From: Catellatospora sp. IY07-71
GTDB lineage: Bacteria; Actinomycetota; Actinomycetes; Mycobacteriales; Micromonosporaceae
Assembly: GCF_018326265.1 (NCBI RefSeq)
Contig: NZ_AP023360.1
Span: forward strand, 102,501 to 166,500
Direction of reading: 5' to 3'
Length of the DNA stretch: 64,000 bases
In this document: piece after piece, positions 9,451-57,671 of the stretch
Numbering within the stretch: position 1 is the stretch's first letter
How the letters are laid out: each line of letters begins with the position of its first letter
Notes under the pieces: generated by a model
Told to the model about the DNA's origin: nothing
Database searches by the model: none
The model's input: only the letters and a program-made list of their open reading frames with translations
Program-made: the position numbers and the translations under genes

Positions 9451-9527
9451 CGGGGTGTAGCGCAGCTTGGTAGCGCACTCGCTTTGGGAGCGAGGGGCCG
9501 TCGGTTCGAATCCGGCCACCCCGACCA
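9451..9527 (+). tRNA. tRNA-Pro (anticodon TGG)
   Basis: A full cloverleaf: acceptor arms cggggtg (9451-9457) and caccccg (9517-9523), D-loop AGCGCAGCTTGGTAGCGC, anticodon stem ctcgc/gcgag with loop tttggga giving TGG, T-loop GTTCGAATC, then discriminator A and an encoded CCA. Confidence 0.97.
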
Positions 9528-9593: not shown

Positions 9594-9667
9594 GCGGGCG
9601 TAGCTCAATGGTAGAGCTTCAGTCTTCCAAACTGACTACGCGAGTTCGATTCTCGTCGCCCGCTCCA
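9594..9667 (+). tRNA. tRNA-Gly (anticodon TCC)
   Basis: Acceptor arms gcgggcg (9594-9600) and cgcccgc (9657-9663), anticodon stem tcagt/actga with loop cttccaa giving TCC, T-loop GTTCGATTC, discriminator T and an encoded CCA. It lies 66 bases after tRNA-Pro and both are probably co-transcribed, ending at the hairpin at 9672. Confidence 0.97.
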
Positions 9668-9712: not shown

Positions 9713-9780
9713 CGCTGTCCGGATTTACGGGCCGTCAGCGGCCCGTCCGCCCTCACCGGCCGGCGACCCGCCCCACGAGG

Positions 9781-9832
9781 AAGGAAGGGCACCTTCTTAA
9801 CGCTTTCCGTAGAGGAAGGGCACCTTCTTAAC
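9781..9832 (+). repeat. Intergenic repeat A, copy 1
   Basis: A 52-base element starting aaggaagggcaccttcttaa. In this copy the second arm repeats the first (direct), while in copies 2 and 3 it is inverted, so those fold into a long hairpin. It lies 36 bases before repeat B copy 1. Copies 2 and 3 are at 11526-11577 (inverted) and 57524-57575. See findings. Confidence 0.85.
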
Positions 9833-9868: not shown

Positions 9869-9890
9869 GATCGCGATCTCGTGTCAGAAC
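9869..9890 (+). repeat. Repeat B copy 1, left part (interrupted by the IS element)
   Basis: The first 22 bases of a 61-base palindromic repeat, gatcgcgatctc followed by the target duplication gtgtcagaac (9881-9890). The rest of the repeat resumes after the insertion sequence. The joined element matches the intact copy at 57611-57671 in reverse orientation at about 50 of 61 positions. Confidence 0.85.
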
Positions 9891-9903
9891 CAACGCCGTT
9901 GAC

Positions 9904-11301
9904 TTAAGGATTTGAGCGGGCTGTCAAGCCTTCTTCGAAGATGGTGACGGTGGCGTGGAAGGTGTAGGTCTGGGTCTGCTGCGGGTGTTTGCCGGCGTTG
10001 GGGCCGTATTTGCTGGTCGGGTTCTTGCGGCTGCGGGCTTTGGCGCGTTGGCGTCGTCGGGCGGGTAGCAGGTTGTCCTGCACGGCCTGTCCGATGGCGC
10101 CGACCAGTACGGCGTGGCCGGGTGGTGGTATGACGGCTTCGGCGGTGACGACCTGGTCGCGTGCGGTTTCGAGGGCGACGGTGAAGCTGGCCCGGTGGTA
10201 GTCGACGTCTGGCAGGGCGTCGACCGCGTCGACGGTGATCCGGATGATCGTCTGGTAGACGGTCAGCAGGGCCCAGAGTTCCTGGTCGATGTCGGCGGGG
10301 TGGTGGGAGCGCAGGACCCGCTCGTCCAGGATCGTGGACTTGATCGACAGGTAGGTCGTCTCGACCTGCCAGCGCTGGTGGTAGAGCTGCACGAGGTCGG
10401 CCGCGGGGTAGCGGGTGTGGTCGAGCAGGCTGGTGATCAGCCGCCACTGCTCCGTGCGCACGACGCCGTCGGCGTGGGTGATCTCGACCCAGGTCTCGAT
10501 GACGCGGACCTTCAGCCGGCCGTGGCCGAGAACGGACAGGTAGGAGCCGTCGGATAGCCGGGTCAGGATCAGCGGGACGCGGCCGGCACCGGAGCGGCAC
10601 AGATACTGCACGCGGGTGGCCGCGATGTCGGCCAGTAGCTTCCAGCTGTCGTAGTAGGCGTCGGCCAGCAGCAGCATCCCGGCGTCGAGTTTGTCCAGCA
10701 GCCGGCGGGCGTAGACATGCTCACCGGCGCTTTCGGGCCCGAACGCCGCCCCGAGCAGGGCGCGGGTGCCGCACTCGACCAGCACGACCAGCCGCAGGTA
10801 CGGGTAGCTGAACGTCATCGCCGGACCCTGGCGTTTGGGGTAGCGCGTCCTGGTGCCGGGCCGGTCGGGCACGTGCAGGGTGGTGGCGTCCACGGCGACG
10901 GTGCGAAACCCGCGCCAGAACGCCGGCCCCGTCGTGGGCCAGGCCACCGGGCCGCAGACCGCCTCGAACAGCGCGCGCAGCGGTTTGGGGCCGACGCGGC
11001 GGCGGGCGCGGGTCAGCGCCGACGCGCTCGGGCAGGCCACCGCGAGCCCGCGCAGACCGGCGACCAGTTTCGCCCACACCTGCCGGTAGGCGCACGGCTC
11101 GAACAGCGCCAGCGCCAGCACGAAGAAGATCAGCACCCGGGTCGGCAACAGCCTGACCCGCCGCTGCGTGGTGCCGGTCTCGGCTGCCACGGCATCGACC
11201 AGGTCGAAGTCGAGAACCTGGGTCAGCTCGCCCAGATGGCCCGGCGCGAACGCCCCGGCCGCTACCGTGATCGTGCGCGTGATGGCAGACTGCTGCTGCA
11301 A
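9904..11301 (-). CDS. IS4-family transposase (DDE, YREK signature)
   Basis: A DDE transposase of about 465 residues. The N-terminal IS4 domain (about 18-85) is followed by the RNase H-fold core with the first aspartate in VAVDATTL (D138), the second in LLADAYYD (D214), and an intact IS4 signature Y307-(2)-R310-(3)-E314-(6)-K321 that holds the catalytic glutamate. The TTG at 11301 is preferred since GAGGAG lies five bases upstream. The frame is open to another TTG at 11391, inside the terminal repeat, without a site. The start and ribosome site are buried in a hairpin (11300-11352). Confidence 0.92.
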   Translation of the reverse strand: MQQQSAITRTITVAAGAFAPGHLGELTQVLDFDLVDAVAAETGTTQRRVRLLPTRVLIFFVLALALFEPCAYRQVWAKLVAGLRGLAVACPSASALTRARRRVGPKPLRALFEAVCGPVAWPTTGPAFWRGFRTVAVDATTLHVPDRPGTRTRYPKRQGPAMTFSYPYLRLVVLVECGTRALLGAAFGPESAGEHVYARRLLDKLDAGMLLLADAYYDSWKLLADIAATRVQYLCRSGAGRVPLILTRLSDGSYLSVLGHGRLKVRVIETWVEITHADGVVRTEQWRLITSLLDHTRYPAADLVQLYHQRWQVETTYLSIKSTILDERVLRSHHPADIDQELWALLTVYQTIIRITVDAVDALPDVDYHRASFTVALETARDQVVTAEAVIPPPGHAVLVGAIGQAVQDNLLPARRRQRAKARSRKNPTSKYGPNAGKHPQQTQTYTFHATVTIFEEGLTARSNP

Positions 11302-11352
11302 CGGGACTCCTCGGGTCAATTCTTGGTCGAACTGATATTGAGGAGTCCCGTT
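11300..11352 (-). promoter_or_regulatory. Hairpin covering the transposase ribosome-binding site
   Basis: Perfect 13-bp inverted arms, aacgggactcctc (11300-11312) and gaggagtcccgtt (11340-11352), enclose 27 bases. In the transposase mRNA the downstream arm contains the GAGGAG Shine-Dalgarno and the first two bases of the TTG start. A transcript that starts outside the element would fold and hide the start, while one starting inside the loop would not. IS10 and IS50 protect themselves from read-through transcripts in this way. Confidence 0.65.
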
Positions 11353-11412
11353 CCATATCGCCAGCCGAGACGGCCTTGACGCGGCGATCAAATCCTTAAG
11401 TCAACGGCGTTG

Positions 11413-11461
11413 GTGTCAGAACCTGTGGCCTGGCTGCACTTTCTGACACGAACTCGCGATC
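11413..11461 (+). repeat. Repeat B copy 1, right part, with target duplication
   Basis: It begins with the second target copy gtgtcagaac (11413-11422) and continues for 39 bases (ctgtggcctggctgcacttt, then ctgacacgaactcgcgatc). With 9869-9890 it rebuilds one B repeat, whose arms cgtgtcagaa and ttctgacacg are inverted. Confidence 0.85.
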
Positions 11462-11525: not shown

Positions 11526-11577
11526 GTTAAGAAGGGCACCTTCTACAACGGAAACCGTTAAGAAGGTGCCCTTCCTT
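11526..11577 (-). repeat. Intergenic repeat A, copy 2 (inverted)
   Basis: Read on the minus strand it begins AAGGAAGGGCACCTTCTTAA, the same first 22 bases as copies 1 and 3. Its second arm is inverted and gives a hairpin. With copy 1 it brackets the B repeat and the IS element. It lies 62 bases past the stop of the lectin gene, on its downstream side, so it could act as its terminator. Confidence 0.85.
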
Positions 11578-11639
11578 CAGATGTCGGCGATGCGCGACCG
11601 CCGGAAGCGGCGCTGATCAGGTCGTCGGGGACGGCGGCG

Positions 11640-12122
11640 TCAGTAGAGCAGCTTCCACTGCGCGAAGGGAACCGCGCAGCTGCCGTGGACCAGCGCGGTG
11701 CCCGGGTCCTTGCCCGGCCGAGCCAGGCATCGGCCGCTGGCCACGTTCTCGAACCGGAACGTGTTGCCCGAACCGTTGCCGATCCACTGCTGCGTGCCGC
11801 TCCCGTTGCAGGTCAGCTGCTGCACCGGCGATCCGGTCACGAGGACCGCGGTCAGGCACTTCCCGCTGGCGAGGTTGGTGATCCGGTATGCCCCGGGAGC
11901 CACCTCGGTGACGTTCCACAGCATGAGGTTGACGTCGGCGCAGATCTCCTGAGTGACGGCCGTGCCATCGGCGGAGTCGGCAACCGCGGCACAGGTGTGG
12001 GTCAGCTGACTCTCGATGAACTTCTCAGTCCACGAGTCGGCGTGGGCGGGCGCGGCCGGCAGCACCGCAGGGGACAGCGCGAGCAGGGCGACCAGCAGCG
12101 CTCGGGTGACACGGCGATTCAT
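11640..12122 (-). CDS. Secreted ricin-type beta-trefoil lectin-domain protein
   Basis: A 160-residue protein with a Sec signal peptide (basic MNRR, hydrophobic core, AHA cleavage site near residue 28). A single RICIN-like trefoil of about 125 residues follows, with QxW-type positions in GTQQWIGNG and AQWKLLY and three ASGKCL/ASGRCL-type repeats. These domains bind carbohydrate. No catalytic domain is attached, so it is a stand-alone secreted lectin of unknown ligand. Start ATG at 12122. Confidence 0.85.
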   Translation of the reverse strand: MNRRVTRALLVALLALSPAVLPAAPAHADSWTEKFIESQLTHTCAAVADSADGTAVTQEICADVNLMLWNVTEVAPGAYRITNLASGKCLTAVLVTGSPVQQLTCNGSGTQQWIGNGSGNTFRFENVASGRCLARPGKDPGTALVHGSCAVPFAQWKLLY

Positions 12123-57523: not shown

Positions 57524-57575
57524 AAGGAAGGGCACCTTCTTAACGCTATGCGTAGAAGAAGGTGCCCTTCTTACC
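57524..57575 (+). repeat. Intergenic repeat A, copy 3
   Basis: A 52-base element beginning aaggaagggcaccttcttaa, with an inverted second arm (aagaaggtgcccttctt) that forms a hairpin. It starts five bases past the GH15 stop, and lies 35 bases before repeat B copy 2, the same spacing as at copy 1. Likely terminator. Confidence 0.85.
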
Positions 57576-57610: not shown

Positions 57611-57671
57611 GATCGGCAGTTCGTGTCAGAAAGTGCAGCTCAGCGCAAGGTTCTGACACGAAACAGCGATC
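57611..57671 (-). repeat. Intergenic repeat B, copy 2 (intact)
   Basis: A 61-base element with inverted cores cgtgtcagaa and ttctgacacg, both ends gatc. In reverse orientation it matches the pre-insertion copy 1 at 50 of 61 positions. It sits 20 bases before the cobA stop, between convergent genes. Confidence 0.85.

Follow-up and report, generated by a model that had tools for sequence, protein, structure and literature searches.

The window analysed here is a stretch of 64,000 nucleotides, corresponding to positions 102501-166500 of the single 8.6-Mb contig of the host genome, with a G+C content of 71.8%. It contains an insertion sequence (IS) of the IS4 family seated in one arm of a dispersed palindromic repeat, referred to below as B, together with an intact B copy elsewhere in the window. 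The features concerned are as follows.

9869..9890, + strand: interrupted B repeat, left part; GATC at 9869-9872, separated from the duplication by 8 bp
9881..9890, + strand: 10-bp target duplication GTGTCAGAAC, first copy
9891..11412, - strand (transposase sense): IS4-family insertion sequence, 1522 bp, CAACGCCGTTGA...TCAACGGCGTTG; ends taken from the differing duplications of six copies
9891..9916, + strand: terminal inverted repeat, low-coordinate end; 25/26 bases match the other end (locus L003)
9904..11391, - strand: transposase open frame, 495 aa counted from TTG (candidate start)
11387..11412, - strand: terminal inverted repeat, high-coordinate end; 25/26 bases match the other end (locus L003)
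11413..11422, + strand: 10-bp target duplication GTGTCAGAAC, second copy
11423..11461, + strand: interrupted B repeat, right part; final GATC at 11458-11461
57611..57671, + strand: intact B repeat; 50/61 against the reverse complement of the interrupted copy

On the + strand of the window, GTGTCAGAAC occurs at 9881-9890 and 11413-11422 only. Genes for tRNA-Pro (9451-9527) and tRNA-Gly (9594-9667) lie close upstream of the insertion. A small protein encoded at 11640-12122 on the - strand features a ricin-B-type lectin domain (70.6 bits), as well as a marginal CDtoxinA-domain match which barely exceeds its cut-off.

The family assignment made in an earlier, sequence-only reading of this DNA is borne out by the transposase profiles, the catalytic residues and the family signature. 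The protein contains the IS4 N-terminal and DDE domains (PF13006, 102 bits; PF01609, 68.5 bits; both above cut-off) and matches the NCBIfam model transpos_IS4_1 at 175 bits (cut-off 115). Its DDE residues are D168, D244 and E344, and its Y(2)R(3)E(6)K signature reads YHQRWQVETTYLSIK. The DDE spacers measure 75 and 99 residues, the second being one short of the approximate range of 100-150 given in the available text of PMC2266710. As is typical of the family, the duplication spans about one helix turn (10 bp in 6/6 copies), the ends are inverted and there is a single frame of 495 aa. Table 1 of PMC2266710, in the portion available, gives subgroup IS4Sa ends of the form CA------T, duplications of 8-10 bp and sizes of 1150-1750 bp; the ends (CAACGCCGT), the duplication (10 bp) and the size (1522 bp) of the present element agree with these values, and by these features it would belong to IS4Sa.

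Rebuilding the empty site by script, through the joining of 9869-9890 and 11423-11461, yields a 61-bp palindrome that begins and ends with GATC. The alignment of this site with 57611-57671 at 50 of 61 positions, as claimed previously, holds for the reverse complement and fails for the direct strand, on which only 42/61 positions agree. As controls, the next-best 61-mer of the window reached 32/61 and one shuffled copy reached 35. Across the genome, the strict pattern CGTGTC-N27-GACACG is found 223 times versus 0 for a reversed control, and the looser CGTGTC-N18..40-GACACG 250 times versus 10. Strict matches are similarly abundant in a relative, G001 (233), and less so in G010 (39) and four other genomes of the genus (17, 15, 13 and 11), with 0-1 in four further ones. 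Among 354 genomes of the bacterial family, those outside the genus had counts of 0-3 each, like the control. On these pattern counts, B appears to be common in this genus only.

A weight matrix applied to 1.6 Mb of evenly spaced stretches recovered 41 B copies, versus 0 in the reversed sequence. By a crude composition test in the same sample, 35 of the 41 were located outside coding-like frames, which occupy 79.5% of it. Among the 33 copies with assignable neighbours, 15 lay between convergent, 16 between tandem and two between divergent genes, as compared with 25%, 60% and 15%, respectively, for random non-coding positions. The conserved blocks of B (GATC and CGTGTC) are symmetric and their spacing is fixed. 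At the variable positions of the inner arms, pairing in 66 copies (61.7%) resembles that in shuffled arms (60.8%). Perfect pairing of the outer arms is found in 16.7% of these copies versus 7.4% in shuffles, with 10 of 2000 shuffles as high, and no measure of arm covariation exceeded shuffles in a set of 28 copies. Since the arms thus vary largely independently of one another, B looks more like a symmetric sequence element than a structure selected as a hairpin. It resembles REP elements of the GTAG- and CGTC-tagged superfamilies in being a dispersed extragenic palindrome of many copies, but these are described, in the available portion of PMC3733652, as 20-40 bp long and tagged at one end by GTAG or CGTC, whereas B spans 61 bp and ends in GATC. 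A second dispersed inverted-repeat family, composed of AAGGAAGGGCACCTTCTTAAC units, adjoins both B copies of the window (9780-9832, 11526-11578 and approximately 57525-57575) and has matches in at least 9 of 11 genomes of the genus.

The genome carries six copies of the IS, five of them identical and the sixth with one substitution. All six demonstrably interrupt an arm of a B copy at the same base and are flanked by perfect 10-bp duplications. Read inwards, towards the centre of the repeat, these are GTGTCAGAAC (twice), GTGTCAAAAC, GTGTCAAGAT (twice) and GTGTCAAAAG, each of which starts with GTGTCA. Since the duplications differ among copies, the ends of the IS are fixed; the exact ends and 10-bp duplication deduced from the window alone are thereby upheld in 6/6 copies. 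The check suggested in that reading, whether other copies also lie in B repeats, came out positive as well, and insertion into a palindrome that was present before the IS is supported. Relative to the element in transposase sense, the flanking GATC lies on one side in three of the local copies and on the other side in the remaining three. This residence at one position of a dispersed, mostly extragenic palindrome, in 6/6 copies, corresponds to a type 1 REP association.

Three of the six sites were compared with relatives. At site L002, the left flank in G001 is 95% identical across 1502 bases and then enters an intact B without IS; the right flank past B had no direct alignment, and orthology thus rests on the left side. 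At site L006, G001 has one B versus two here, the targeted B being the one that is missing. At the window site, one contig of the G001 draft runs through the same duplication and stops after 8 bases of the IS end, while another contig starts inside the duplication. Such breaks make it very likely that G001 carries the IS at this site too and that its assembly was broken by the element. A protein search of G001 gave no transposase match, as expected of a repeat which was collapsed and lost. The empty site predicted for relatives was therefore encountered at L002, but not at the window site, where G001 seemingly has the IS, nor at L006, where the targeted B is absent. The orthologous B copies at the L002 site (L185 in G001) differ in both arms together, each remaining nearly palindromic, which hints that whole B copies are replaced or converted. 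The second B at the L006 site is present as a whole in one genome and absent from the other (L197), indicating that B copies come and go.

Four genomes of the bacterial family encode transposases 57-69% identical to that of the window, and relatives 52-61% identical are present on Streptomyces plasmids. The host is probably an actinomycete, since its class contains genera with IS elements closely resembling those of Streptomyces plasmids. At all 24 of the 24 distinct sites of this clade that have a confirmed duplication, one flank carries GATC at a distance of exactly 8 bp from the duplicated bases (the GATC-N8 rule). From the GATC density of this genome, a match at offset 8 on one side or the other would be expected at approximately 1.3%. 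Other offsets from 0 to 34 feature GATC at 0-2 of these sites each; seven sites have it at offset 35, which is mainly the far end of B. The 24 sites were picked by end sequence and the clade was then checked by a tree of 39 duplication-bearing transposases, in which all 15 GATC-N8 rows form one clade with support of 100/99. In assembling these data, 81 loci entered end-calling, which left out two without ends and 19 without a duplication; the tree retained the 39 rows with a duplication, dropped 14 without one, and lost L063, the open frame of which is short. Clade copies without a recognisable duplication have no GATC at offset 8, L127 and L130 being among those whose ends are recognisable. 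Six insertions with identical flanks in G211 (L089, L092, L094, L096, L097 and L098), all of the GATC-type IS, were counted as one site; they seem to have been copied within a larger repeated unit.

The rule was suggested by 18 distinct sites; it was later tested on the plasmid loci and on loci from 392 genomes of a different genus. Of ten plasmid loci fetched, seven had a duplication; GATC-N8 was found in 6/6 clade members, or in 6/7 counting the sister row L132, which has no GATC at offset 8. The 392 genomes yielded 17 loci, ten of them with a duplication and nine of these representing new sites (L274 repeats the L125 site); GATC is located at offset 8 in eight of the nine, the other reading GATT. 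The tree comprises loci of the earlier set. Of the 17, seven (L266, L267, L270, L271, L272, L278 and L279) were without a duplication, and L267 and L271 have flanking copies in inverted instead of direct orientation, which recombination between copies may have produced. A or T precedes GATC at 31 of 33 sites, and A or G follows it at 30, so that most read WGATCR. The element is oriented one way relative to GATC at 15 sites across the clade and the other way at 17. In G278, 4/4 insertions occupy another palindromic repeat which is also GATC-ended; strict patterns found this repeat 0 times in 400 kb, and weaker relatives of it were recovered by BLAST from 2 of the 20 stretches sampled (L292, L293). 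The G211 insertions of the GATC-type IS lie outside palindromic repeats and retain GATC-N8.

In the present genome, GATC alone was considered as a targeting rule and rejected. Within the 1.6-Mb sample, B arms account for only 75 of 20,156 GATC-N8 positions (0.37%), hence the occurrence of all six copies in B needs more than GATC. The sample contains 34 instances of GATC-N8-GTGTCA versus 75 of GATC-N7-CGTGTC. The extended motif GATC-N8-GTGTCARRA falls inside B at 23 of 24 sites, after removal of three IS-flank matches. This near-confinement means that a local sequence rule would be sufficient. GTGTCARRA without the GATC requirement falls inside B at 24 of 34 sites (IS flanks excluded), and would by itself give six of six in B with a probability of 0.12; as it predicts B almost equally well, the contributions of GATC, GTGTCA and the palindrome are inseparable in this genome.

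The probable explanation, in our view, is direct sequence recognition: the transposase would read GATC-N8 together with, in this genome, a GTGTCA placed at the cut, and B arms are nearly the only places that combine the two. Jointly with this reading, we take the element to be, in all likelihood, a recently active IS4-family insertion sequence of strong target-site specificity. Its GATC (mostly WGATCR) would lie about one helix turn beyond the cut, with 8 bp between it and the duplication, and would be needed on one side only; the GTGTCA would be that with which the duplicated 10 bp begin. A single GATC contact, about one turn from one of two cuts spaced 10 bp apart, would then be enough, and we infer that this contact is made by the transposase directly. 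Cut-and-paste transposition is established for IS10, IS50 and IS231A, the target consensus of the last of these differing from the rule described here, and an IS4-type DDE transposase would presumably act in the same manner. Each B copy, with its arms supplying GATC and GTGTCA, may offer up to two mirror-image landing sites; as B is GATC-ended and its arms mirror one another, both orientations of the IS are possible. GATC-N8 is a regularity of the whole clade, and the extra preference for a single repeat would have arisen lineage by lineage. Landing between genes in abundant repeats may allow the element to persist with little harm, and may be favoured because genes are spared. More speculatively, and with slightly less than even confidence, a GATC ruler built into the clade may have been supplemented, separately in different lineages, by recognition of the host's own GATC-ended palindromes (B here, another in G278) as safe landing pads.

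If a host protein that binds B and other GATC-ended repeats recruited the transposase, GATC would belong to the site of that protein instead of the transposase target. The symmetric conserved blocks of B, with their fixed spacing and largely independent variable positions, are what paired half-sites would give; moreover, the repeat is mostly extragenic (35/41 sampled copies) and GATC-ended repeats are targeted in more than one genome. However, B is confined to the genus, yet GATC-N8 is kept in relatives whose targets are otherwise unrelated. Tethering by a host protein also usually results in spacing looser than the exact 8 bp observed. We therefore regard such recruitment as unlikely.

The sequence-only reading had proposed that hairpin or cruciform DNA may be the preferred target, which would render the sequence motif incidental. 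Consistent with this, palindromic repeats are the targets at 6/6 local and 4/4 G278 insertions, outer arms of B pair perfectly more often than in shuffles, and good folding is seen at three of the six local empty sites (L002, z -8.6; L004, z -4.75; L003, z -2.36) as well as at L060. These scores were derived from RNA energies and mononucleotide shuffles, on 80-bp stretches which lose approximately 4 bp of the far end of B. By the same measure, however, the local sites L001 (z -0.40), L005 (z -0.39) and L006 (z -1.64) fold weakly, and z falls below -2 at only 1 of 23 clade sites outside this genome and G278, leaving 22 without a strong hairpin. In addition, inner-arm pairing remains at shuffle level, 28 copies lack covariation, the cut lies within an arm and away from the loop, and GATC-N8 persists where there are no palindromes. 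The preference is thus not supported, the feature common to the sites being GATC 8 bp outside the duplication; arm covariation and empty-site folding lead us to reject an extruded structure as a requirement, and we consider it quite improbable as the target. Lastly, near-random insertion followed by survival in extragenic repeats as safe places, which the 35/41 B copies outside coding-like frames might suggest, is highly improbable and contradicted by the position data, since B arms form 0.37% of GATC-N8 positions while about 20% of the sample is non-coding, and since neither 6/6 insertions at one exact base of the repeat nor the exact GATC spacing in relatives would be explained.

The entry of IS elements into extragenic palindromes is already known in several families, including the IS4 member ISRm22, as described in the available text of PMC1525189. 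According to that source, ISRm22 of Sinorhizobium meliloti, of subgroup IS4Sa, has nine copies, all in a repetitive extragenic palindrome; it resembles the window IS in family and in the residence of every copy in such a repeat, but generates 6-bp duplications at the symmetry axis of the repeat, as opposed to 10 bp within an arm and a one-sided GATC 8 bp outside. ISPsy8, ISPa11, ISPpu9, ISPpu10, ISRm19 and other REP-inserted elements likewise occupy a fixed point of a palindrome in type 1 association (PMC1525189, as available; for ISPpu9 also the accessible part of PMC8450116). The families of ISPsy8 (IS3) and of ISPa11, ISPpu9 and ISPpu10 (IS110) differ from IS4, and these four elements produce other duplications or none, versus 10 bp here (PMC1525189, same portion). 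Within the IS4 family, the available text of PMC2266710 attributes some insertion specificity to IS231A, as in the window IS, and spectacular specificity in the arms flanking the duplication to some elements of the IS4 subgroup and ISRm22. Our search of the open literature, with subscription journals and IS databases outside its scope, found no description of the GATC-N8 rule or of B, and queries on the CTAG rule, IS4Sa targets and Micromonospora or Actinoplanes repeats returned nothing describing either.

The nearest comparison comes from within the same bacterial family. The other 24 rows of the tree comprise 20 of a CTAG type and four of neither kind, the CTAG label needing two changes on the tree. 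CTAG-type transposases are 46-52% identical to that of the window, and their elements have similar ends and the same 10-bp duplication; they are separate in the tree, however, and in the group outside the GATC-N8 clade, 24 of 31 sites have CTAG as bases 4-7 of the duplication in place of GATC-N8. GATC occurs at offset 8 in 3/31 sites of this group, which is above chance. A shift between a motif inside the duplication and one outside it appears to have taken place, in either direction given an unrooted tree. The determinants of target choice among DDE insertion sequences are poorly known beyond a few model elements, and sister clades which share chemistry and a 10-bp duplication, while using mostly CTAG inside versus GATC 8 bp outside, provide a natural comparison. 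As these clades differ in target motif, the part of the transposase which reads the target should be findable by domain swaps. The system is furthermore a natural case of an IS confined to extragenic repeats, with bearing on the long-term coexistence of IS and host as well as on tools for site-specific insertion. Among deeper CTAG-type copies in G211 (L103-L113), 7 of 9 with callable ends have CTAGG(G/C)C-GTGTCTCGT(G/C)GATCTT on one side; this GATC-ended sequence is also found elsewhere in five of the L103-L113 loci.
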